Part shown: one piece after another, positions 6,885-27,757 of the stretch
Position numbering within the stretch: the stretch's first letter is position 1
Layout of the letters: every line of letters starts with the position of its first letter
Assembly: GCA_041874755.1 (NCBI GenBank)
Contig: CP102611.1
Location: forward strand, 186,001 to 250,000
DNA: 64,000 bases
Source: Chitinibacter sp. SCUT-21
Lineage (GTDB): Bacteria; Pseudomonadota; Gammaproteobacteria; Burkholderiales; Chitinibacteraceae
Direction of reading: 5' to 3'
Notes under the pieces: model-generated
What the model was told of the DNA's origin: nothing
Databases searched by the model: none
What the model saw: only the letters and a program-made list of their open reading frames with translations
Made by a program: the position numbers and the translations under genes

Positions 6885-8810
6885 CTATTTTTTGCCTTTA
6901 CGTAGCGCGCGCAATTCGAACCGTGCAGGATCTATGGCATTGACTAAGCTGCGTTCTATCGGCAAGGGCTCGTTATTTATTTGGCATGCAATAATTTCCG
7001 CAGCTAATGCATGCCAGGTAATTCCGCGCGAACCAAAGCCTAGTACGGTATACAAACCGGGCTGCCTAGGCATCTGAAATAATTGATGTATAGCCTCCCT
7101 ATCGCTGGGTTTATTGAGTGGTGCATGCAAGGCTCCAACTAAGGGAAGGCGATCAAGCGAGTTTGGTCGGGCGCATACCCTTGTGTAGGTTTGTTTTGGC
7201 TGTGGCGGTTGTACGTCTGGCAATAAATCAGTTAATGCTGCGAGGTTGGCGTCTCGCGCCGCATCCGTATTGTCATTAATTAAGGCCGCTGCCCCTAAGC
7301 TGCGCCAGCCATTCCACGCGGCGGTGAGATAAGCCTTGCCCGAGTAGCTGGGCAGCGCAGAAGCAAACAATTCGGCAGGTACTTGGGTAACGGCACGCCA
7401 ACTTTCACTGAGTGGCAAATCTGCGTTGCTGATTAGCTGTGTAGCGGCGGTAGCATTGGCAATAATCAGTGTTTTCGTGGTGGCAATGCAGTGGGCATCA
7501 TGCGAAAAAAGATGCCAACGGTCATTAATAAATTCAATGCATTCTACGTGGGTATTGCCTTGAAAATTAATTAAATTTTGCTCTTTAGCAATATACCCTA
7601 CACATAGGCTCTTCGGGTTTAGCCAAGCACCCTGCTCAAACCACCATCCGCCGCGGGGCGGGGTTGTGCCAAGCTTTTCGTAGGCTTGTTCTTGATTTAG
7701 GTATTGCACAAGTGATGCTGGAAAATGCAGCGTTTGTACAGTTTTTTGCATTAATGTTTCTTGCTCATCGTCTTGGGCTGCCTGAAATTGGCCTGCAAAA
7801 CCGAACTGCACCAAGTCGGATGATTGCGCCAAGTGCAGCAATTTTTGCCGCGTCAGTGAAAAACCAGCTCGGCTTAAGCGCGCGAGTGCATTGTCATCTT
7901 TGCTAAAGGTCGGATGGCACAGGCCGACATGGTTCCCAGAGGCACGCTGCGCAATATCGTGTTCTGCATCCAATATGAGTACAGACCAGCCGCGCTCGGC
8001 TAGGCTTGCGGCCGTTGCGCAGCCGGCAATGCCAGCGCCAATGATAATTGCCGACTTTTCCGTAACGATGTATGGCTGTTGTTGCACAATGACGCGCGGC
8101 GGTTTGGGGAGGCGCGCGCAGTATCCGATCAGCATTTGCCGTTTGCTGGCAATGTCCACGGCTGTGGAAGTCGTAAAACCGGCCTCATGCAATCCCTCCA
8201 GTACATGGCTTGCTATGGTGTAGCTTGCTAGCGTGGTGTCGGCTGTGCACAAACGCCACAGCGCTTTAAAGACCGGCAAACTCCACATCTCTGGGTTTTT
8301 GGTCGGAGAAAAACCTGCGAGATAGATCGCATCAACTTTGCCCGAAACCTCATGTAGCATATTGAGCGTATCGCCGAATAATAGCGTTAAGCTAACTTGG
8401 CCTTGGTCTAGCCAAATGCGGTGAAATCCAGGGGTTAAATGCGGCCAATGCTCCAGCAGTTGTGCTGAAAGTTCGCTCAGCTCCGGATAGCTCTGATGTA
8501 GTTGCTGTAAGCTATCGCGCGTAAAAGGATGGAGCTCTACCGAGATAAAATGCAAGCGCTGGGATCGATGCTCATCATTGCGCCACTTTAGCCATGTGGT
8601 CAGAAAATTAAGACCTTGACCAAAGCCCGTTTCAATAATGCTAAAGCAATCTTTGCCTTGCCAGCGCTGCGGCAATTGATTGCCGGCTAAAAAAACGGCT
8701 TCGGCTTGCTGTATAGCGTCATGACTGGCGTGATAAATATCGTCAAATTGGCTGGAGTAGAGCGTCTGGCCGTCTGCGGCAAATTCGAGTTGGGCGGGGA
8801 TAATGGGCAT
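6885..8810 (-). CDS. mnmC: Bifunctional tRNA mnm5s2U34 methyltransferase / FAD-dependent oxidoreductase MnmC
   Basis: Carries out the last two steps of 5-methylaminomethyl-2-thiouridine formation at the wobble base of certain tRNAs. The C-terminal oxidase removes the carboxymethyl group of cmnm5(s2)U and the N-terminal SAM methyltransferase methylates the resulting nm5(s2)U. The N-terminal domain (about 1-240) shows IIETGFGQGLNFL, the SAM loop, and DAIYLAGFSPTKNPEMW. The FAD domain begins with IIGAGIAGCATAASLAERG (about 255) and ends with GFGSRGITWHALAAEIIA. The product is 641 residues from the ATG at 8810; a TTG at 8816 would add two. It starts six bases after the mdfA stop, so the two are probably translationally coupled; no good SD of its own is seen. 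Confidence 0.93.
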   Translation of the reverse strand: MPIIPAQLEFAADGQTLYSSQFDDIYHASHDAIQQAEAVFLAGNQLPQRWQGKDCFSIIETGFGQGLNFLTTWLKWRNDEHRSQRLHFISVELHPFTRDSLQQLHQSYPELSELSAQLLEHWPHLTPGFHRIWLDQGQVSLTLLFGDTLNMLHEVSGKVDAIYLAGFSPTKNPEMWSLPVFKALWRLCTADTTLASYTIASHVLEGLHEAGFTTSTAVDIASKRQMLIGYCARLPKPPRVIVQQQPYIVTEKSAIIIGAGIAGCATAASLAERGWSVLILDAEHDIAQRASGNHVGLCHPTFSKDDNALARLSRAGFSLTRQKLLHLAQSSDLVQFGFAGQFQAAQDDEQETLMQKTVQTLHFPASLVQYLNQEQAYEKLGTTPPRGGWWFEQGAWLNPKSLCVGYIAKEQNLINFQGNTHVECIEFINDRWHLFSHDAHCIATTKTLIIANATAATQLISNADLPLSESWRAVTQVPAELFASALPSYSGKAYLTAAWNGWRSLGAAALINDNTDAARDANLAALTDLLPDVQPPQPKQTYTRVCARPNSLDRLPLVGALHAPLNKPSDREAIHQLFQMPRQPGLYTVLGFGSRGITWHALAAEIIACQINNEPLPIERSLVNAIDPARFELRALRKGKK

Positions 8811-8816
8811 AGACAA

Positions 8817-10043
8817 TCAAGCGGCTTCTTCTCCGTGCGGTCCGCGTAAAAAAGCACGGCGCGCCAGCACGGCAAACAGACCAGAAATAAAACAAATCAA
8901 CACAAAGCTGCGGTTACCCCAATTAGCGTAGCTCCATTTTAACAGCTCAATGCCGGCGGCAAAAACAACCATATTAAACATGCCTAAAGCAGCGGCGACC
9001 GTGCCCTTGCTTTGCTCGCTGGCATACAGCGTTAGGCGGTATAGCGCGGCATTGACCATGCCCATGCCGATGGCTGCAACACCCATAGACCACACCAGCC
9101 ATAGCCAATTTGCTGGGGCGAGCAGTAAATAGAGTGAGGCGCTTAAACCGGCCATCATCGGGATGGTGCCAAGGCGGATTAAGCGATAAATCGGCACAGA
9201 GCTAACAAGCTTGGCGAGTAAAATATTGCCCAAAATAAGACCAGCAAAAACTGGAATTTGCCAAAGGCCGTAAGCTAAAGTGCTCAAGCCTGCCGTTTGC
9301 ATCAAAATCACAGGCGCGAGCGCAATCCAGCCAAGTAAGGGCACGATATTTAAGCCCAAGGCGAGCCCGCCATAGACAAAGCGGCGATTTTGAAAAACAA
9401 TTTTATAATCCTGCCACAGCGTGCCCAAGCGCAGCGGGGAGCGATCCATGGGTGAGGTTTCTGGCATTTTTAGCCATAAGCCCACTAGCGACACGGCTGA
9501 AAAGAAGGTGACGATAATAAAAATCCAGCGCCAATCGGCAATTTGTAATACCGCAGCGCCAGCCACAGGGCCGATTAAAGGGGCGATTAAAGCGACGTTG
9601 GCCATCAAAGCCATGACACGAATGGCCATGACTTCAGTAAAACTCTCCTGTATAGCCGCGTAACCCACGGCGCCAATGAAGCACAGGCCAATACCCTGCA
9701 AAAAACGAAACAGTAGAAATATGCCAAACGTATGCGCCCAAATGATGCCAATACTAGCTAAGGTGAAAAAAATGGCGCCACCCAGCATGACTGGTCTGCG
9801 TCCAATACGATCCGATAGGGGGCCGAGTAGCCATTGCAAGCTTGCGCCGCCGAGCAAGCACAGCGTCATCGCCGATGGAATAAGAACGGGGTCGGCGCCA
9901 AATTCTTTCACCACGGCAGGCATGCCGGGTAAAATCATATCGTTTGAAATATAAGTGGCAAATTCAAATAGAACGAGTGCTATTGGAAAGAGTAAGCTTG
10001 TCCACGTGAGCTGAGTAATTGGGGGGGACGATGTCTGCGACAT
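8817..10043 (-). CDS. mdfA: MFS multidrug efflux transporter, MdfA type
   Basis: A 408-residue, 12-helix major facilitator pump that exports lipophilic cations and chloramphenicol-type drugs in exchange for protons. Helix 1 has the MdfA signature FEFATYISNDMILPGM, whose acidic residue in the membrane is important for substrate recognition in E. coli MdfA. Motif A is GPLSDRIGRRPVMLGG and motif C-like FIGAVGYAAIQESF follows, nearly identical to MdfA. The frame extends far upstream, but the ATG at 10043 gives the correct N-terminus, and the extension would overlap the HU-like gene. It is divergent from that gene and followed immediately by mnmC. Confidence 0.88.
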   Translation of the reverse strand: MSQTSSPPITQLTWTSLLFPIALVLFEFATYISNDMILPGMPAVVKEFGADPVLIPSAMTLCLLGGASLQWLLGPLSDRIGRRPVMLGGAIFFTLASIGIIWAHTFGIFLLFRFLQGIGLCFIGAVGYAAIQESFTEVMAIRVMALMANVALIAPLIGPVAGAAVLQIADWRWIFIIVTFFSAVSLVGLWLKMPETSPMDRSPLRLGTLWQDYKIVFQNRRFVYGGLALGLNIVPLLGWIALAPVILMQTAGLSTLAYGLWQIPVFAGLILGNILLAKLVSSVPIYRLIRLGTIPMMAGLSASLYLLLAPANWLWLVWSMGVAAIGMGMVNAALYRLTLYASEQSKGTVAAALGMFNMVVFAAGIELLKWSYANWGNRSFVLICFISGLFAVLARRAFLRGPHGEEAA

Positions 10044-18081: not shown

Positions 18082-18274
18082 GGCGATAGCTCCATATGGC
18101 ATTTGTTAAACTTTAGGATGTTTGTTGTTGAATCTCCACCATGCTCTACATTGCGTCTGTAACCGATTTCCCGTAGTACTCGGATGATTGGATGAGGGCG
18201 GTGACTAACGGTGCTGCTTTGTGTATTATTATTTGCTAATATATGTAAATAGTACCAAATGGATGGGCAGGGTC

Positions 18275-20371
18275 ATGTTGCAAGGACTTCCAAGCAGTCA
18301 ACCTAAGGGCAATACGGCAATAAAAACCGATCCTATGTTGGCGGCGTGTCGTGATTTGGCCGTCAAAATGCTGACTGACTCTTTAGATCATTTCTTTTCA
18401 AAATTAGAAGATACCTACTTCGAACTCGGCGACAAAAGCTTTGATCGAAAGCAGAGAGAAGACTTTTATGCCGCTCGTTTAGAAACGCATAATAAGCGCG
18501 AGCTTATGGCTCGGCAGTTCCAAAGCTTTATGAATGAAGCTTTTGATAAAGGCGCGATAAAAAAAACAGCAGACAATGAGAAAAAATTCTTTTACGTCAG
18601 TGCAGATCCTGATCAGTTAAGCTTGGTTGCAAATGAAGAATATGAGGAAAGCATTTCCGCAGACAAGGTTGTCAAAAGCATTAAAACTCAAGGAGGTGAT
18701 GAACTCACGCAGTTAGAACTGCGCTTGGCGCGTTTGTTGCCAGAAAATGATGGACAGATAGCGAGTAATCCGATGTCTCCGGAAGCTATATGTGAAGCAT
18801 TTTTGCAGGCGTGCCGACAGTTGGAAACCGGGGTCGACGCACGCATGATTGCAATGCAAGCGTTTGAAAAGGAGCTGTCCGGCCAGGTTGCCAATGTTTA
18901 TCATCAAATTAATCAGTACCTTATCGCGCAAAATGTTCAACCGCTACCACGAAGTCAAAGGGCTAAACAGCAAATTTCGCCAAAAGAGCACGAAGTCAAA
19001 CCCAAGTTGGCTGAAATTCCTCAGCTTGCAAATCATCTGTCACAACTAGCAAACCACGAAATTACAGAGCAAGAAACGAAAGCGCTAGAAACCTTGCGTC
19101 AAGCACCTAGCTGGTTAGCTTTCTTGGACCTGCTTCAACGCAAGGCCCCTTCCGCTGCAGCTGTTGATGGTGGTGAAACAATTACCCAAAACCTTTTGGG
19201 CTTGTTACGAGAAACAGGGTGGGCTAAGCAGCTCCCTCAACTCGACGCAATGACGCTCGAGTTGGTTGCTATGCTGTTTGAGCATATTTTCGAGGATCCA
19301 CGTCTATCACCTTCCGTGAAGAGCTTGATCGGACGTTTGCAAATTCCAGTTCTCAAAGTTGGCATGATGGACGCTGATTTTTTTGCCAGTAAAAAACACC
19401 CAGCTCGTTTATTGCTGGATGAGCTGGCATTTAGCGCAACGGATAATGAACAGTTTGAAGTTGGGATGCCGCGCTATGAAGCCACAGCCGAGATTGTAAA
19501 TTCATTAATAAAAAGATATGAAAAAGACATCTGTGTTTTTGATGAAGCCCTACATCAATTACAGGTACTTAATCAGCGCTATGAAGAGTTGGCCGCAGCA
19601 GAGTTGGCGGAAGAGGTGGAACAACTGGCAGCGCACGAGCTAGCTGAACTCTCGCACGTTACATCAGAGCAGTTAATTGCCCAGCATCTAAGTCAATATG
19701 AATCTGTACCGGATGTAATTCATGACTTTCTGACGGGGAATTGGTTATCAGCGTTAAAGGTGGCTTACGGGCCTCTTGGCGAATGCGAGCCGGAGTATGT
19801 TCGCCGCATTTCTGCCATGAATGATTTGCTTTGGAGCGTTCAGCCTAAAGCTACTGCTGATGATCGTTTTAAAATGGTCAATATGCTACCTGTTATGCTC
19901 AAAGCACTCGAGGATGGGGTGGCCGCTGCAGGTCTAAGCAAAGAGCATGCTCAAGCATTTTTTTCCGAGTTGGTGCAATGCCATGCTAGTGCCATTCGAA
20001 ATGGTATTAAAGTGGTTTCACGCCCAATTAGTGCGGTAGAGCAGGTAGTGGAAACTAGTTCTGATGAAGCTTTTCAGGAAACAGTGCCTGCTTATTCTGA
20101 AGATAGCTCTAAAGATGCAGATTCGATTTTACCGATCAAAGGTGAGTGGGTGGAGTGGTTAGATGAGTATGGTCACATTAGTCGTTTGCGTTTGTCGTGG
20201 ATAAGTCCGCAACAAACGCGTTTCTTATTTACCAGTCGTGAAGTCAAAGGTATGGCTTTTTTGAAGCCAGAGCTGGAATGCGCCATTAAAGAAGGGCGCA
20301 TTATTAGATTGGCTCTCGAGGGGTCAATAACAGATCGAGCCATCCAAGGTGTAATGAAGGATTTGTGCTAA
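18275..20371 (+). CDS. DUF1631 family protein
   Basis: About 698 residues, matching the DUF1631 family (sometimes mislabelled thymidine phosphorylase), whose biochemical role is not known to me. It is largely alpha-helical and acidic, with no signal peptide or membrane segment. The conserved N-terminal part contains LDHFFSKLEDTYFELGDKS, and the C-terminal 75 residues (GEWVEWLDEYGHISRLRL, then SWISPQQTRFLF) look like a small beta domain. Start choice is uncertain: ATG at 18275 has a GGG-rich stretch upstream; 18263 and 18221 are alternatives. It converges on the response regulator and multi-PAS kinase genes and may belong to the same signalling network, but that is inference. Confidence 0.8.
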   Translation: MLQGLPSSQPKGNTAIKTDPMLAACRDLAVKMLTDSLDHFFSKLEDTYFELGDKSFDRKQREDFYAARLETHNKRELMARQFQSFMNEAFDKGAIKKTADNEKKFFYVSADPDQLSLVANEEYEESISADKVVKSIKTQGGDELTQLELRLARLLPENDGQIASNPMSPEAICEAFLQACRQLETGVDARMIAMQAFEKELSGQVANVYHQINQYLIAQNVQPLPRSQRAKQQISPKEHEVKPKLAEIPQLANHLSQLANHEITEQETKALETLRQAPSWLAFLDLLQRKAPSAAAVDGGETITQNLLGLLRETGWAKQLPQLDAMTLELVAMLFEHIFEDPRLSPSVKSLIGRLQIPVLKVGMMDADFFASKKHPARLLLDELAFSATDNEQFEVGMPRYEATAEIVNSLIKRYEKDICVFDEALHQLQVLNQRYEELAAAELAEEVEQLAAHELAELSHVTSEQLIAQHLSQYESVPDVIHDFLTGNWLSALKVAYGPLGECEPEYVRRISAMNDLLWSVQPKATADDRFKMVNMLPVMLKALEDGVAAAGLSKEHAQAFFSELVQCHASAIRNGIKVVSRPISAVEQVVETSSDEAFQETVPAYSEDSSKDADSILPIKGEWVEWLDEYGHISRLRLSWISPQQTRFLFTSREVKGMAFLKPELECAIKEGRIIRLALEGSITDRAIQGVMKDLC

Positions 20372-20379
20372 TTATTTGG

Positions 20380-21513
20380 CTAGTCCCCAATGGCTTTTTG
20401 TAGGTCATGAATCGCGTTGCTCAGTTGGTCTTGAAAATGGGCTTCAGCTAATAAAGCCCCTGATACATCTTCGAGACCATCATGAATAATGGCCATTAAC
20501 GAGGACTCTTGTCGCTCTGTCAGTTGCAATCCAACAAGTGCTTCTTCTACACGCATCATCACATTGCTTAAAATAATGGATGCAGAAGCGCGTCCTGAGC
20601 GTTGCAAGTCATCGATATTAGCCATCGTAGTTGTTAGATTCTTAATAGTTTCAGCAATGGCGGTGCCACGATTCTGTGACTGATTTGACGTGTTGATGGC
20701 TTCTAAACGCACTTCCGCTGCTTCAATTAGCATTGCTAAGTGATCACGCAGACGACCGCATCGTTCTGGATCATCAGTGGGCATGTTGGTGATCAGTGTT
20801 CTCACATGTGGGTAGCTAATGGACATGCGTGTTTTGAACTGGGTTATCCTATCCATTGAGGCCATGTGTTGAATAACTGAGGATTCAAGCTCAGTAGCCG
20901 GCCCTTGCTTTCCGATGACAAGATTTGCATTGTTTGGGAGCAACAACTCCACGACGCTATCTACATCAAATAAAGCTTGCCCTTGTACAACGGCATCTGC
21001 CAGTTCCCGTGGGGTTTTGCAGTAATTGAATCGCTTAAGCCCTTCGAGTAATAACCCCGTTTCACTCATGCTCGTCATTGCTAGCATGGCTGTATTTGTT
21101 GCATATTGACTCTGGTTTTTTAACTGCTGACGCTCATCAATTAGGGCTAATATTCGTTTGACTTTGGCCTCAAGAATTTTGGGGTTGATTGGTTTGGCTA
21201 GAAAGTCCTCCCCACCTACTTCAAAAGCTTGTAATCGATCATCGATGGTATCGAGGGCAGATAAAAACAATATAGGTATGTCGTACAAATCGAAGTCATC
21301 TTTAATTTGACGACAAAACTCGAAACCATTCATTTCAGGCATTTGTATATCAGCAATGATGAGCTTCGGGTGAGACTGCGCCTGGCTTAATGCAAGACTG
21401 CCCGATTCTGCTGTAATGATTTGGCAGCTTTCAGCTAGAGCATCATGTAAAAAATCTAGCATAAACAAGTCATCATCAACGATCAGTACAAGTGGTTTGT
21501 CATCAGTTTGCAT
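20380..21513 (-). CDS. Response regulator with uncharacterised C-terminal domain
   Basis: A 377-residue protein. Residues 1-125 form a receiver domain: acidic pocket in LIVDDD (13-15), phospho-acceptor D55 in IIADIQMPEMNG, switch residue S85 and lysine K107 in FLAKPIN. The remaining 240 residues contain no DNA-binding, GGDEF, EAL or HD-GYP motif. They include a possible GAF-like segment (about 160-230) and a helical, coiled-coil-prone tail with SISYPHVRTLITNMPTDDPERCGRLRDHLAML. It begins 22 bases after the giant hybrid kinase gene on the same strand, so the kinase is its likely phosphodonor. Output unknown. Confidence 0.85.
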   Translation of the reverse strand: MQTDDKPLVLIVDDDLFMLDFLHDALAESCQIITAESGSLALSQAQSHPKLIIADIQMPEMNGFEFCRQIKDDFDLYDIPILFLSALDTIDDRLQAFEVGGEDFLAKPINPKILEAKVKRILALIDERQQLKNQSQYATNTAMLAMTSMSETGLLLEGLKRFNYCKTPRELADAVVQGQALFDVDSVVELLLPNNANLVIGKQGPATELESSVIQHMASMDRITQFKTRMSISYPHVRTLITNMPTDDPERCGRLRDHLAMLIEAAEVRLEAINTSNQSQNRGTAIAETIKNLTTTMANIDDLQRSGRASASIILSNVMMRVEEALVGLQLTERQESSLMAIIHDGLEDVSGALLAEAHFQDQLSNAIHDLQKAIGD

Positions 21514-21535: not shown

Positions 21536-24500
21536 TTAGTTTTTATTAAATTCCCACTGTTTTTTCCAAGCTATAAATTCGTCAGCTGGCATTGGCTTTG
21601 CAACTAAATAGCCCTGTACTTCATGGCAACCAACTGATACAACTAAATCCCAATCCTCTTGTGTTTCAACACCCTCTGCGACCAAATTTAGTTTAAATTT
21701 GCTTCCCAGCATCACGCTGTGTTCTAAAATCGTTTGTGCAGATTTATTATTGCTAGCTCCGCGGACAAAAGCTTGATCGATTTTTAATTCAGTGAAAGGT
21801 GTTTGCAGTAGGTGCTCCATCGTAGAGAATCCTGTTCCAAAATCATCAATAGACAAGCCGAATCCTTTGATGCGCAGTCGAGTAAGAATGTCCAAACTCA
21901 ATACATAATCGTGAGAAAGCTGCGTTTCTGTAATTTCTAGTGTAATTGATTGTGCTGCGACACCACTCTCTTCTAAAACTGCACTAAAAAGCTCCGGCAG
22001 TTCTAGTCGATGCAAATTATCCATTGATACATTGACTGATAATTTAATGTGCTCACCTTGTTCTTGCCAGGATTTAATCTGCCTAACGGCCTGTCTTAAT
22101 ACATTAAAGGTCAAATCATCGACCAACCCCAAGGTTTCGATCGCAGAAATAAATTGCCCTGGTCCGAGTAAGCCCCTGGTGGGGTGTCGCCAGCGAGCTA
22201 AGCACTCAGCACCAACAACACGCCGATCAAGTGTACTAACCTTCGGTTGGTAAAATAATTCGACTGCGCCATGGGCCAATCCTCGCTGCAATTCGTTGGC
22301 ATCTAGGTGGTCTTCTGCTGGCTTACCAATTGGTTTTATCGTGTTTTCTAGCGTTGCTTCACTCAGTAAACGGGCTAAATCTTCTCTTTTGACAGGTTTG
22401 CTTAAAGCCCCGTGAATATTGAGCATAAAGGCTTGGCCTAGTTTCTCGGTGGCTTTTAAGACGGTGTTATCCATCCCGGATAAAATGGCAACCTGCCCGC
22501 GATAGTTCTTTTGGCCAAGTAAGCGAAGAAAAGCAATCCCATCTAAATCTGGCATTTGTAAATCGCACAAAATCCAGTCAGGTAATTCCTGCTGCTCCAG
22601 TTGTGCAAGAGCCGCATTGCCGTCTAGGCAGGTTGTCACATGGGTTAGTTGAAGGTCGGCTAAGTGTTGCGAGATAATATCTAGAGTAAATTCGTCATCA
22701 TCAATAAGCATAATACGCAGATTGTGATCCAAAAGTGGCATTGTGCTCGATGATTTAAGCGTTACTGGGCTTGATTCAATTAACTGCTGATCAAATAAGT
22801 GCTGGCAGGTTTGCTCAAAAATATCATTGAGCCCTTTGATTTTTTCCTTCAGAAAGGGCGAGGAGCTATCTCTGGAGTCATTTTCTAGCTGATTGAGGCT
22901 GTTTGCCAGTTCTATGGCCCCAACCGTGCGAGCTATTGATTTGAGCCTATGGCATTCTGCAGCAATTTGCTGAATACCTCCCTCATTGGAAAGGCTTGAT
23001 ATTTTTTCTAAGCCTTCATGGGTGGCCGAGACAAACTTGGCAAAATATTTCTTTTGCCGCTCGATTTGTGGCCCCAGCATCGCAATTAAAGTGTCGTAAT
23101 CGATTAAAACGTCGTTTTGGGTTTTGATCGTATTCTCATTGCTTTCATTTTCTGTGTGCCCTGATACCCAATAAGCAAGCGTTTTATATAGTTTTTCAGG
23201 TATAACAGGTTTACTAATAAAGTCGTTCATTCCTGCTGCAAGACACAACTGCCGATCCTCATTCGATACATTGGCGGTCATGGCAATGATTGGGATTTGA
23301 TCAAATTGGGTGCTGTTCCGAAGTATCTTGCTTGCGGTGAAGCCATCCATTTCGGGCATTTGAACATCCATTAATATCGCATCAAATTGCTGCGAGTTTG
23401 CTAGCTCAACCGCTTCCCTTCCGTCATTGGCTAAAACAACTGTTGCTCCAACTTCAGCGAGCAGATCTTCGCCAACTTGCTGATTAAACGGGTGGTCGTC
23501 TGCTAGTAGAATATGTTTACCCTTTAAGGTGCTGTGATAGTCGATAGACTGGCGATCCTGGTCATTCTCATTTAATGATGGCTGGATGATTGATGGCAAT
23601 GGGAGGCTAAAACTAAATTCGCTACCGAGCCCTGATTGGCTTTTGAGTGTTAATTCCCCCCCCATTAACTCAATTAGTTGTCGGCTAATTGCTAGTCCTA
23701 ATCCGGTTCCACCAAATTTTCGTGTTGTTGAGCTATCTGCTTGGTGAAAAGATTGAAATAAACGTGTTTGTGCTCCTGGTGATATTCCGATTCCAGTATC
23801 GGTTACTGTGAAGCAAATTCGGGGGGGCGAAGTGGGAGGGGGCAGCATTGTAGAAATGTGCAATCGAATTTTGCCTTGCTCGGTAAATTTAATGGCATTG
23901 CTCAGCAAGTTTATTAAGACTTGTTTGAGTCTTAGCGCATCACCCTTACTATATTTAGGGACATCAGGCTCAATAATTAATTCAAATTTAAGGTGTTTTT
24001 CAAATGCCTTAGGCTCAAGCAAGTCTTTTAGCTCATTACATAATGAAGATAGCGAAAATTCAACGGATTCGATTTCAAGTTTTCCAGCCTCGATTTTAGA
24101 GAAGTCGAGTATGTCATTGATTAATCCTAATAAGTGGGTACCTGAGCTACTAATTTTGCTTAGGTAATCTCGTTGCTTCTCATTTAAGTCAGTTTGTAGG
24201 GCAAGGTGGGCCATCCCAAGTACACTATTAAGTGGGGTGCGAATTTCATGACTCATATTTGCCACGAAAGCACTTTTGGCTCTGTTGGCGCTTTCCGCAA
24301 GCAGGCGCGCCGTTTCTAGCTCTTTAGTGCGTTGCTGTACGCGCTCTTCTAGATTTGCTGTCAAGTTAATTAAATTTTGTTCAAATTCTTTGCGGTCTGT
24401 AATGTCCCTTACCATGGCGGTGTAAATGGGTGATCCGTAGTTTTCTGAAAATGAAATGGCAACTTCAATTGGGAATTCGGATCCGTCAGCACGTTGCCCG

Positions 24501-27500
24501 CAAACTTGGCGTGCTGCTATGCCATTCATTTTTCGGGTCTGATTCCCTTTTTCTCCAAACTGGCGCATAAAAATGCGATGACTAATTGCATAACGCGAGG
24601 GGATGAGGGATTCAATTGGACAACCAAGCATTTTGTAAGCGGGGTACCCAAACATTTGTTCAGCGGCGCGATTGAATAAAATGATGTTGAATTGATTGTC
24701 GGTTGTGATGATTGCATCCATTGCACTATCAATCATGCCTGCGAGTTGTGCACGATTGGCGAGCAATTCCTCCTCTGCATTTTTGCGAAGGCTAATGTCG
24801 GTTGTGGTGCCTATCATTCTGCTCGGAGTGCCGTCCTCGGTTCTGCTAACGACTGTTCCGCGTGTTAGAACCCATTTGTAGCTGTTATCTTGACTGCGTA
24901 GTCGGTGTTCGGCAGAAAAAGAAGGGCTTTGGCCGTCTAGGTGTGATTTTAGCTGGGCGCGTAGTGGCTGAATGTCTTCTGGGTGAACTCGTTCAAGCCA
25001 CTCGTCAGGGCTGTTAGATAATGTTTTCGGGTCGATCGCAAGGAGTTGAGCCCATCGCTCTGTAAGACTTAGTTTGTTTTCTTTTAAGTCCCAATCCCAC
25101 ACGCCGTGACCGGCGCCTTCAATCGCCGTTTTCCATAGCTGGTCGCGTTGATGTAGCTCCTCTTTTGCTCGTCTCGATTCGCGTTTGCTACGAAGTGCCA
25201 TGACTAGTTGAGAATAGGTCAACATAAATGGCTGGAGCTCATCGATTAGCTTAAGATTGAAGCCTTCCTTGCGATTGGCCATCCCAATCTCGGCGATTAA
25301 TGTACTTCCCTGGAAAATAGGGATCGCCATGAAATTGAAAATTGGCGCGTGTCCATTCGGGGTCTTGTAAATGTTCGAGTTGGTTGACGCTTCGTTCGAG
25401 ATATAGGGTTCTAAAGTTCGTAGTGGTATTCCAAAAACACTATCTAGGTTGTGAAATTCAATGCCGTGTTCAATATATTGTTGATATGTCTCATGAGCGC
25501 CCTGATTCCAGGCCATATTGCTCAATGCGTTTGCGCGCAAATAGGGGGATCCATCGGTATTAAGTAACACTTCGGCGATGAAGCCAAATTGGCACTGACT
25601 CACCAAGCAAATTTGCTCGAGCACCATATCAAATGCGGCTTTTTCATCTTGGTTTTCGATGAAGTTGCCTTGAATGTGCGCAATTGCCTGTAGTTGAGTG
25701 TTGCTGAAATCACGCTGTTGTTTGGCAAGATGCTCGGCGCTAATGTCGCGCTGTACGGTGATCCAAACCGGCCCGTAATTTTTATGGTTGAAGCCTGAAA
25801 TGGCTGCTCGAGTCCAAAAGGTTTCCCCATTGAGTTTGATGTTGAGTAACTCGCCTTCCCAGTGAGCGTGAAGTTCCAATTCTTTGAGAATAACCTGCGC
25901 CATGTCTTCCTGTAAGGTGTTCGCAGGAGGGTTGAGTACGCTGACGTGCTTGCCAATTAGGCTGTTCGATGGGTAACCAAACATGTCTTCTAGGGTTGGA
26001 TTGGCGTAGACGATAATACTGTCACTAGCGCGAACTAGGTGTACACCTTGATGCATGTTCTCGAGTACCTCACCCCGAAAAGCTAGTTCATTCTGCATTT
26101 CTTGAATTTGACTTAAATCTTGGATGCAAACGGGAACATTTTTCGCTGCTTCATGCGTTTTCGGAATAGGGAAAGAAATAATGGCGCGGAAAGGATGATT
26201 GCCTAGCGTGCGCAAGTTGACTTCTGCGCTAAAGTGTTCTTTTTTTTCCCAAAAATGCATTAATTCGTCTTTGATTACATCAATTGCGCCGTCGCCAAAT
26301 AAAACACTAATATCCTTCAGTAATTCAGCTTTTGTTCCCTGAAAAAGGGCTTCGGTTGCTGGGTTGAGGTCGGTGACTTTAAATAAGCGAATGCACTCCT
26401 GAAGTACTTCATTGTGCTGCTCTAGGTGATGATGAAAGTCTACGATGCCTTCGGCTCGCAGTTGGTCGAGCCGGTCCAGTAGGCCCGACATGTCTTCGTT
26501 CCAGATGGAAAGATTTGCTGTTTCAAAAAGTGCCTTGAAACGTTGTTCTCGCATGACGAGTTCTTGTTGCTGCTGCTCTTGTTCGGTTAAGTCGATTAGT
26601 GTGACTAGGTGATCTCCAGTCCAGTTGTTTTCTAGCGGTGTTGCGCTTGCTAACACTGTTTTCAGTTCACCATTTTGGCAATGGATGTGCGCAATTAATG
26701 GTTCAAACTGTGTTTGCTGGGTTTTGGCGGTTTCGAGTCTTTGCAGCCATTGATCTTGTATCCAGTTGCGATAGCTTGCGTCTGGGTAAGCGTGAGTCCA
26801 CCAATGGTGTAAATCAGGTATCTCAGCTAGTGAATAACCAAAGGTGGCAGAGAATGCGCGGTTGACAAAACTGATCTGCAAGTCTGGTGTGTTGATCGCG
26901 CATGGCACAGGGAGGGTGGCCATTAGTAATTCAAACCGAATCTGATTTTGAGCCTGAATCCGTTGTATCTCTTTATAAGGAGTAATGTTTCGCCAGGAAG
27001 AGATTGAGTGCGTAATGAGGCCTTCCGCATTACGGGCAGCGCGACTGCTGAGTAATACATCAAAGATCTGACCGTTTTTGGCTTTGACCTGTAACTCAAT
27101 CGCCTCAAGGCAGCCTTCTTGGGTGAATTTGGGTAGTAGTTCCGTTTTGATTCTTTGGCCGCTTTCTTGGGTATATATCTCAAGAGCAGATCTACCAATG
27201 ACTTCGTGGCTATAGTAGCCTAGGGTATTTAATAAAGTTTGGTTGCAATTGATGATGTGCGTTGTTCTTGGGTTGATTGATAGCAGCATGTCAGGAGAGT
27301 GGTCATACAAGTCCTGGAGTTGCTGCTGACTTTGCAAAAGATTTTGGGTTTGTTCTTTATGACTGGATATGTCCGTCAAAATACCTTCAATGGCTTCAAT
27401 TTCCCCTGTGTCAGAAATAATGGGCCAGGACTGATCTTGTACCCAAATTGTTGCGCCGTCACTCCTGGTGAGGCGGAACTCGCTCACGTTGCGTTGGTGT

Positions 27501-27757
27501 ACTTCATGCCGTTGCGATCGAAGTAGTTGCTGTGTGTCTTTATCATCCGAGTGTATTAGATCTAGTAATCCCACATCTTGTTGCAGAATGCTGGCAGTGT
27601 ACCCAGTTAATGCTAGGCAGCCTTCGCTGCAAAATATGAAGCGCCAATTTAAGTCACGCCGACAGACGTACAGCATTCCCGCATAGTTGCGAGTAAAGGC
27701 GGTAAAGAATTTTTGCCTTTTGTCTACGCTCTGTATGGAGTTGGCTTGCCTTTTCAT
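21536..27757 (-). CDS. Multi-PAS hybrid sensor kinase with REC, Hpt, REC and EAL domains
   Basis: A 2073-residue soluble protein without signal peptide or membrane helices. Approximate order: PAS (20-140), PAS (142-265), PAS (270-390), degenerate PAS (398-555), PAS (558-685), GAF (690-860), PAS (870-1000), PAS (1003-1125), coiled coil, HisKA with H1170 in MSHEIRTPLN, HATPase (N box NLLSNAIKFT, DTGIGIS, GGTGLGL), REC1 with D1464, Hpt with H1603 in CHRLKSIARTVGA, REC2 with D1732, and EAL (about 1823-2065). The EAL signature reads ECLAR with E1851, and SVNVS, LEITET, IDDFGTG, LKIDQAF and AEGVET are all present, so it should be a working c-di-GMP phosphodiesterase. The relay H-D-H-D thus appears to end on the protein's own EAL output. 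Expressed with the response regulator at 20380. Confidence 0.92.
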   Translation of the reverse strand: MKRQANSIQSVDKRQKFFTAFTRNYAGMLYVCRRDLNWRFIFCSEGCLALTGYTASILQQDVGLLDLIHSDDKDTQQLLRSQRHEVHQRNVSEFRLTRSDGATIWVQDQSWPIISDTGEIEAIEGILTDISSHKEQTQNLLQSQQQLQDLYDHSPDMLLSINPRTTHIINCNQTLLNTLGYYSHEVIGRSALEIYTQESGQRIKTELLPKFTQEGCLEAIELQVKAKNGQIFDVLLSSRAARNAEGLITHSISSWRNITPYKEIQRIQAQNQIRFELLMATLPVPCAINTPDLQISFVNRAFSATFGYSLAEIPDLHHWWTHAYPDASYRNWIQDQWLQRLETAKTQQTQFEPLIAHIHCQNGELKTVLASATPLENNWTGDHLVTLIDLTEQEQQQQELVMREQRFKALFETANLSIWNEDMSGLLDRLDQLRAEGIVDFHHHLEQHNEVLQECIRLFKVTDLNPATEALFQGTKAELLKDISVLFGDGAIDVIKDELMHFWEKKEHFSAEVNLRTLGNHPFRAIISFPIPKTHEAAKNVPVCIQDLSQIQEMQNELAFRGEVLENMHQGVHLVRASDSIIVYANPTLEDMFGYPSNSLIGKHVSVLNPPANTLQEDMAQVILKELELHAHWEGELLNIKLNGETFWTRAAISGFNHKNYGPVWITVQRDISAEHLAKQQRDFSNTQLQAIAHIQGNFIENQDEKAAFDMVLEQICLVSQCQFGFIAEVLLNTDGSPYLRANALSNMAWNQGAHETYQQYIEHGIEFHNLDSVFGIPLRTLEPYISNEASTNSNIYKTPNGHAPIFNFMAIPIFQGSTLIAEIGMANRKEGFNLKLIDELQPFMLTYSQLVMALRSKRESRRAKEELHQRDQLWKTAIEGAGHGVWDWDLKENKLSLTERWAQLLAIDPKTLSNSPDEWLERVHPEDIQPLRAQLKSHLDGQSPSFSAEHRLRSQDNSYKWVLTRGTVVSRTEDGTPSRMIGTTTDISLRKNAEEELLANRAQLAGMIDSAMDAIITTDNQFNIILFNRAAEQMFGYPAYKMLGCPIESLIPSRYAISHRIFMRQFGEKGNQTRKMNGIAARQVCGQRADGSEFPIEVAISFSENYGSPIYTAMVRDITDRKEFEQNLINLTANLEERVQQRTKELETARLLAESANRAKSAFVANMSHEIRTPLNSVLGMAHLALQTDLNEKQRDYLSKISSSGTHLLGLINDILDFSKIEAGKLEIESVEFSLSSLCNELKDLLEPKAFEKHLKFELIIEPDVPKYSKGDALRLKQVLINLLSNAIKFTEQGKIRLHISTMLPPPTSPPRICFTVTDTGIGISPGAQTRLFQSFHQADSSTTRKFGGTGLGLAISRQLIELMGGELTLKSQSGLGSEFSFSLPLPSIIQPSLNENDQDRQSIDYHSTLKGKHILLADDHPFNQQVGEDLLAEVGATVVLANDGREAVELANSQQFDAILMDVQMPEMDGFTASKILRNSTQFDQIPIIAMTANVSNEDRQLCLAAGMNDFISKPVIPEKLYKTLAYWVSGHTENESNENTIKTQNDVLIDYDTLIAMLGPQIERQKKYFAKFVSATHEGLEKISSLSNEGGIQQIAAECHRLKSIARTVGAIELANSLNQLENDSRDSSSPFLKEKIKGLNDIFEQTCQHLFDQQLIESSPVTLKSSSTMPLLDHNLRIMLIDDDEFTLDIISQHLADLQLTHVTTCLDGNAALAQLEQQELPDWILCDLQMPDLDGIAFLRLLGQKNYRGQVAILSGMDNTVLKATEKLGQAFMLNIHGALSKPVKREDLARLLSEATLENTIKPIGKPAEDHLDANELQRGLAHGAVELFYQPKVSTLDRRVVGAECLARWRHPTRGLLGPGQFISAIETLGLVDDLTFNVLRQAVRQIKSWQEQGEHIKLSVNVSMDNLHRLELPELFSAVLEESGVAAQSITLEITETQLSHDYVLSLDILTRLRIKGFGLSIDDFGTGFSTMEHLLQTPFTELKIDQAFVRGASNNKSAQTILEHSVMLGSKFKLNLVAEGVETQEDWDLVVSVGCHEVQGYLVAKPMPADEFIAWKKQWEFNKN

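Follow-up and report, generated by a model that had tools for sequence, protein, structure and literature searches.

A soluble hybrid histidine kinase fused to a REC-EAL regulator, with a co-conserved second response regulator, in Chitinibacter sp. SCUT-21

Two-hybrid tests on the Roc system are reported to show that RocA1, RocA2 and RocR are bound, through their receivers, by the Hpt domains of the kinases RocS1 and RocS2 (PMC3083521), and in the ArrS/ArrR system the HPT domain of ArrS is described as binding the REC domain of ArrR, whose phosphodiesterase activity went down to 12.57% with ArrS and ATP (PMC11841396). According to a census of alphaproteobacterial sequences, kinase and phosphotransfer domains are the most frequent partners of EAL in Caulobacterales (PMC9756655). 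Here we describe a protein of 2073 residues, encoded in a 64,000-nucleotide stretch of the genome of Chitinibacter sp. SCUT-21 (the window), in which a soluble unorthodox (H1-D1-H2) histidine kinase is fused to a REC-EAL regulator of the RocR/PvrR type. We consider it probable that a His-Asp-His-Asp (H-D-H-D) relay within this chain tunes the EAL domain, a predicted phosphodiesterase for cyclic di-GMP (c-di-GMP), and that its Hpt domain most likely also serves a second response regulator encoded next to it.

The reading frame is open over all 2073 codons (Table 1). An earlier note on this DNA had placed HisKA, REC1, Hpt, REC2 and EAL domains in this chain, behind one GAF and about seven PAS modules and without a membrane segment. 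A Pfam search found all five domains, the complete order being PAS array with GAF, HisKA, HATPase_c, REC, Hpt, REC and EAL. With the whole protein as query the scores were 219 bits for EAL, 156 bits for REC over two stretches, 103.1 for HATPase_c, 77.4 for HisKA, 35 for GAF_2 and 27.0 for Hpt (cut-off 24.6); with separate pieces, Hpt reached 31.1 bits, REC2 70 bits and the single GAF_2 40.3 bits. Six PAS domains lay above the cut-off when pieces were searched and a seventh, at residues ~460-550, was marginal (E 0.049), so that "about seven" should be read as six firm domains and one weak one. No membrane-like stretch was found, the highest mean Kyte-Doolittle value over 19 residues being 1.38. 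H1170, D1464, H1603, D1732 and E1851 were located by script at exactly the positions assigned to them, and the EAL motifs, which had been called complete-looking, were found in the translation in the same way.

Table 1. Features of the fused protein, of the adjacent regulator and of a chemosensory cluster elsewhere in the genome (residue numbers in brackets; positions in the window unless a contig is named).
Feature	Position	Strand	Evidence
Fused hybrid kinase / EAL protein, 2073 aa	21536..27757	-	open reading frame, Pfam, homologues
PAS 1 (36-131)	27365..27652	-	PAS_3 40.9 bits, PAS_9 29.8 bits
PAS 2 (156-259)	26981..27292	-	PAS_9 46.2 bits
PAS 3 (282-394)	26576..26914	-	PAS_4 35.2 bits
Possible PAS (460-550), marginal	26108..26380	-	PAS_9 14.4 bits, E 0.049, below cut-off
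PAS 4 (576-673)	25739..26032	-	PAS_9 53.3 bits
GAF (703-850)	25208..25651	-	GAF_2 40.3 bits
PAS 5 (897-984)	24806..25069	-	PAS_3 70.8 bits
PAS 6 (1014-1121)	24395..24718	-	PAS_9 42.8 bits
HisKA (1160-1225), predicted phospho-acceptor H1170	24083..24280	-	77.4 bits; H in 120/120 listed homologues
HATPase_c (1272-1388)	23594..23944	-	103.1 bits
REC1 (1416-1527), D1464	23177..23512	-	Pfam; D 120/120, K1516 120/120
Hpt (1571-1646), H1603	22820..23047	-	31.1 bits alone; H 120/120; model all-helical
REC2 (1682-1796), D1732	22370..22714	-	70 bits; D 119/120 (E in P0095); K1787 120/120
EAL domain, predicted phosphodiesterase (1821-2055)	21593..22297	-	219 bits; seven residues 120/120 each
Second response regulator, 377 aa, 22 bp downstream of the fusion	20380..21513	-	adjacent orthologue in the same 15/43 family genomes
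REC domain of second regulator (9-118), D55	21160..21489	-	81.4 bits
Output half of second regulator: GAF-like alpha/beta part (168-241), long helices 249-328 and 333-376	20386..21012	-	AlphaFold2 model
Chemosensory cluster with two stand-alone REC-EAL regulators	G000:C1:2290000-2309000 (L125)

Homologues were searched with residues 1400-2073 as query. The search gave 2786 proteins at E <= 1e-30, with 7993 scored, and all counts out of 120 refer to the best-scoring 120 of the 2786, a selection that favours complete proteins. HisKA, HATPase_c, REC and EAL are annotated in all 120 and Pfam Hpt in 110. At the aligned relay sites, H1170, D1464 and H1603 are invariant and D1732 is replaced once, by E in protein P0095; the receiver lysines K1516 and K1787 are found throughout. 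The same holds for E1851, N1909, D1971, D1972, E2028, E2031 and Q2048 of the EAL domain, which we take to be its metal-binding and catalytic residues, and hydrolysis of c-di-GMP is predicted from their conservation. Among the named sources of the listed homologues are Chitinibacter, Chitinilyticum, Iodobacter, Deefgea, Vogesella, Undibacterium and a few metagenome-assembled genomes (MAGs) under other names. They span 1144 to 2082 aa, which indicates that the constant piece runs from the kinase through EAL and that the sensor part is variable.

An AlphaFold2 model of residues 1131-2073 (mean predicted local distance difference test, pLDDT, 85; predicted template modelling score, pTM, 0.44) matched the fold of RocR (3sy8) at rank 1 in the PDB, that of the hybrid kinase ShkA at rank 4 and that of GacS at rank 10. 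Together with the near-invariance of the relay residues, these matches exclude chance as the source of the domain assembly. The kinase part has the composition of an unorthodox (tripartite) hybrid histidine kinase, namely HisKA with its phospho-His and HATPase_c, followed by REC and Hpt in the same chain, and H1-D1-H2 phosphotransfer is predicted from this arrangement. The output part is built like RocR, with a REC domain carrying the phospho-Asp (D1732) joined to EAL, and aligns with 3sy8 end to end (E 7.2e-61); a RocR-type regulator is separate from its kinase, whereas here both lie in one reading frame.

With all four phospho-acceptors in place and conserved, and the EAL site likewise conserved and intact, the protein is best read as an H-D-H-D relay that acts, within one chain, on a c-di-GMP phosphodiesterase. 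The PAS/GAF array would read cytoplasmic signals and lead to autophosphorylation at H1170; the phosphate would then pass to D1464, to H1603 and finally to D1732, and the state of REC2 would tune the hydrolysis of c-di-GMP by EAL. The fusion would fix the pairing of Hpt with REC2, and the Hpt would most likely also feed the receiver of the neighbouring regulator, giving a branched relay with two outputs.

This regulator, which the earlier note did not mention, starts 22 bp past the fusion on the same strand. The fusion is present (at least 605 bits) in 15 of 43 genomes of the family, and a strong match to the neighbour (at least 477 bits) occurs in exactly these 15, always on the same strand and separated from the fusion match by 20-146 bases; a further six of the 43 hold only weaker relatives, the family-wide maximum being 331 bits. 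Because the neighbour is so strictly co-conserved directly downstream, the chain is probably not self-contained, and its Hpt may serve two receivers. The proposal of relay and output in one chain thus holds for the conserved acceptors and EAL site, but probably not for the chain as a complete pathway. As the neighbour is adjacent in all 15 genomes and neither Pfam nor the PDB gave a sequence match to its output half, the likeliest arrangement is a branched relay like that of RocS1, RocR and RocA1, with the binding of Roc receivers by Hpt domains, as reported (PMC3083521), as a model for the branch.

In the AlphaFold2 model of the neighbour (mean pLDDT 86, pTM 0.50), REC is followed by one long helix, then by a GAF-like part and a pair of long helices. 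Pfam found REC alone in the query and nothing in its C-terminal half; over 109 relatives, with Pfam matches taken at E <= 0.1, REC was found in all, together with weak matches, of which PDE8A_N was the best (17 relatives, 2.6e-4) among the 25 of 30 families listed. No DNA-binding Pfam domain was seen in the query or, among these 25 families, in the relatives. The C-terminal half gave no match at E <= 1 in a PDB sequence search and nothing useful in PHROGs, and REC domains and chains such as 6oaq took up the Foldseek and VIA-align lists, so that these barely probed the output half. Four of its residues, D301, Q304, R305 and Q361, are conserved in 109/109 aligned relatives. A CheZ-like nature of this half would be a guess from a motif, CheZ being absent from the 25 Pfam families listed out of 30; a role as phosphatase or adaptor, in resetting or targeting the relay, is conceivable. 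We put forward, tentatively, the more specific picture of a covalently wired branched relay, in which one soluble chain would sense, relay and set c-di-GMP hydrolysis and the same Hpt would drive a dedicated regulator with an output half outside the families described in the libraries searched.

The neighbour belongs to a family of 401 proteins (E <= 1e-10); of 399 genomes sampled from the order, 40 have a match to it (E <= 1e-60). Among 27 loci of this family besides three fusion loci, kinase or REC-Hpt sequence lay within 1.5 kb in six (L137, L146, L147, L149, L150, L160), three of them on the opposite strand, a count made without control for chance adjacency; REC sequence only was found in four more and none in 17. 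A related regulator elsewhere in the SCUT-21 genome (G000:C1:1781292-1782413) had no kinase-like match to the fusion in the 19 kb covered and is flanked by two large open reading frames, one for CTI and one for a radical SAM protein. A third gene follows the neighbour in Iodobacter sp. BJB302 (L004 13911-17795) and in a MAG (L002 14168-18049); it codes for a fusion-like kinase with REC and an Hpt-like region and ends before EAL, the Pfam Hpt score in the MAG being 21.9 bits, below the cut-off. Its product may provide these regulators with another input. In one genome (G206, L170 3061-6171) a relative of the neighbour lies inside a frame of 1036 aa, with a kinase match in an overlapping frame, possibly a fusion or a frame break. 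In the window, the neighbour is convergent with a gene on the plus strand (18221-20371) for a DUF1631 protein (425 bits).

The kinase sequence in frame with REC-EAL was looked at in all 15 orthologues of the fusion (eight short loci, L081-L088, and seven fetched regions, L162-L168). Four of six genomes of the genus carry an orthologue, the window's own genome counted, which rejects an assembly artefact, and homologues from several genera reject the idea that the fusion is unique. The SCUT-21 genome is one contig of 3,454,474 bases with 26 EAL matches; a second fused copy was rejected there, the other REC-EAL matches lying in frames of 412, 413 and 422 codons. Two of these matches (2297 and 2301 kb) are stand-alone REC-EAL regulators located inside a chemosensory cluster, beside CheA, two CheB proteins and a weak match like a methyl-accepting chemotaxis protein, which suggests another c-di-GMP input in this genome. 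Of 399 genomes sampled evenly over the order, 30 had a match at E <= 1e-85. Most of the 35 matches in these genomes lay in frames of 396-572 codons and are thus stand-alone REC-EAL proteins.

In other relatives the same parts form two adjacent genes with the break between Hpt and REC2, which locates the fusion point. In genome G038, of the same order, a gene for PAS, histidine kinase (HK), REC and Hpt (L126 6006-7979, 657 aa) is separated by 3 nt from a REC-EAL gene (7983-9179, 398 aa). G326 has a Tll0287-PAS-HK-REC-Hpt gene (1083 aa) followed by a REC-EAL gene (409 aa), G397 a split pair of 1376 and 405 aa by reading frames (a frame of 1819 codons is also listed), and a Gallionella MAG (L003) a pair of 909 and 410 aa. 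One alignment ran across the L003 locus, and its reading as a fused protein was rejected on the basis of the open reading frames. These pairs speak for reading the protein as a kinase fused to a REC-EAL regulator, parts that are often encoded by two genes; the fusion itself occurs in many other proteins, and the domain combination appears in the published census (PMC9756655). An open reading frame of about 1180 aa follows the REC-EAL gene in three genomes of one genus (L126 9439-12975, with a Pyr_redox_2 match; 1175 and 1184 aa in L127 and L131).

Of 80 REC-EAL sequences placed in a tree, 52 carried the label fused, 11 had kinase or Hpt sequence at the locus in a different frame, and 17 counted as without such sequence. 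Forty fused rows were hand-picked from the 120 listed proteins, and the labels of locus rows rest on 1.5 kb flanks, so that "without" may miss distant partners. Well-supported branches forced three changes of the fused label, whereas shuffled labels needed 23.2 on average, and two unfused groups nest among fused sequences; the tree is compatible both with three separate fusions and with a single fusion plus two splits. The fused rows L106, L108 and L116 (G279, G066 and G150, of another family) join REC1 to REC2-EAL with no complete kinase between PAS and REC1, and no Hpt match was found in L106 and L108. The row own2301 has a very long branch.

Several observations weigh against the branched relay proposed. 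Pfam Hpt annotation is missing in 10 of the 120 listed homologues, yet the histidine aligns in them, and the fusion is missing in two of the six same-genus genomes. One orthologue (G419, L168 5018-8215) is without most of HATPase_c in frame (residues ~1233-1367), so that the internal kinase is dispensable at least there. This orthologue retains HisKA, REC1, Hpt, REC2, EAL and the adjacent regulator; one may speculate, from this one genome, that a relay part lacking an ATP-binding domain of its own can persist, fed, for example, by another kinase. Within 1.5 kb of L106, L108, L111 and L116, the four fused proteins looked at in another family, there is no such neighbour, nor is there one near the split pairs L003 and L126; as far as seen, the tie of the neighbour to the fusion is confined to this family. 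Finally, PvrR is reported to be active with its receiver aspartate mutated, the receiver aspartate of PvrS being described as dispensable too (PMC3842833).

As residues 1679-2063 fit the PvrR model best among those of NCBIfam, the EAL domain might likewise be active independently of REC2 phosphorylation and be set by sensor conformation, oligomerisation or abundance (PMC3842833). We regard this as unlikely, given the retention of D1732 and K1787 and of an Hpt histidine that would be hard to explain without a receiver. The neighbour might instead be the main client of the relay, with REC2-EAL as a side branch or phosphate sink. Its adjacency in 15/15 fusion-bearing family genomes and the related regulators beside a match reaching the Hpt region in 4/27 other loci (L137, L147, L149, L160) speak for this; the REC1-to-EAL proteins of the other family, fused and with no neighbour close by, make it rather improbable. 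Some EAL domains are receptors, for example LapD, and a catalytically silent EAL could feed back on the kinase as a c-di-GMP receptor; with the checked catalytic residues intact in the query and in every listed homologue, we think this highly improbable. For the relay through D1732, which we prefer, the nearest experiments diverge on the last step, ArrR being reported as inhibited by phosphorylation (PMC11841396) and PvrR as not needing its aspartate (PMC3842833), so that either sign of control is possible. The first proposal, that an intracellular signal directly sets c-di-GMP breakdown, is compatible with control of either sign.

Kinases and c-di-GMP phosphodiesterases are usually paired by indirect evidence; here the genome itself fuses the two, which makes the wiring from signal to output explicit, and since relatives carry the same parts fused and split, the effect of covalent linkage can be tested. 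With the co-conserved second regulator comes an uncharacterised output half, in a family found in about one-tenth of the sampled genomes of the order; this regulator is the most open part of the system. Searches of open-licence PMC papers gave none with the terms Hpt-REC-EAL or REC-Hpt-REC-EAL, and no functional study of a fused HK-REC-Hpt-REC-EAL protein.

Among described systems, RocS1/RocR/RocA1 resembles the fusion in having an H1-D1-H2 kinase whose Hpt is reported to bind the receiver of a REC-EAL phosphodiesterase and those of further regulators (PMC3083521, PMC12051241). In that system kinase and REC-EAL are separate, the sensors are periplasmic binding domains and a further regulator is a transcription factor, whereas here the output is fused into one chain with cytoplasmic PAS/GAF sensors and no membrane segment, and the neighbour shows no DNA-binding Pfam domain. 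ArrS/ArrR of Aeromonas veronii resembles the fusion in its HK-REC-HPT kinase, co-transcribed with a REC-EAL partner, and an HPT-REC contact and a change of activity that depends on phosphorylation are reported there; it is described as two proteins with periplasmic sensor domains and no rocA- or bvgA-like gene nearby (PMC11841396). PvrR of P. aeruginosa PA14 provides the best NCBIfam REC-EAL model, although its equivalog NF052596 scores 338.4 bits against a curated cut-off of 580, and PvrS, unlike the kinase of the fusion, is said to need an outside Hpt (PMC3842833). The split pair of G038 has the same PAS-HK-REC-Hpt and REC-EAL parts, the REC-EAL half being 44% identical, in separate genes, with one PAS region and no neighbour-type regulator in the 14 kb seen. 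EAL proteins of Caulobacterales and Rhizobiales with HisKA, HATPase and Hpt are given as carrying the same domain types in one sequence (PMC9756655), a likeness in domain content. The parts and their chemistry are already known, the fusion is present in many genomes, and the domain combination is in a published census.

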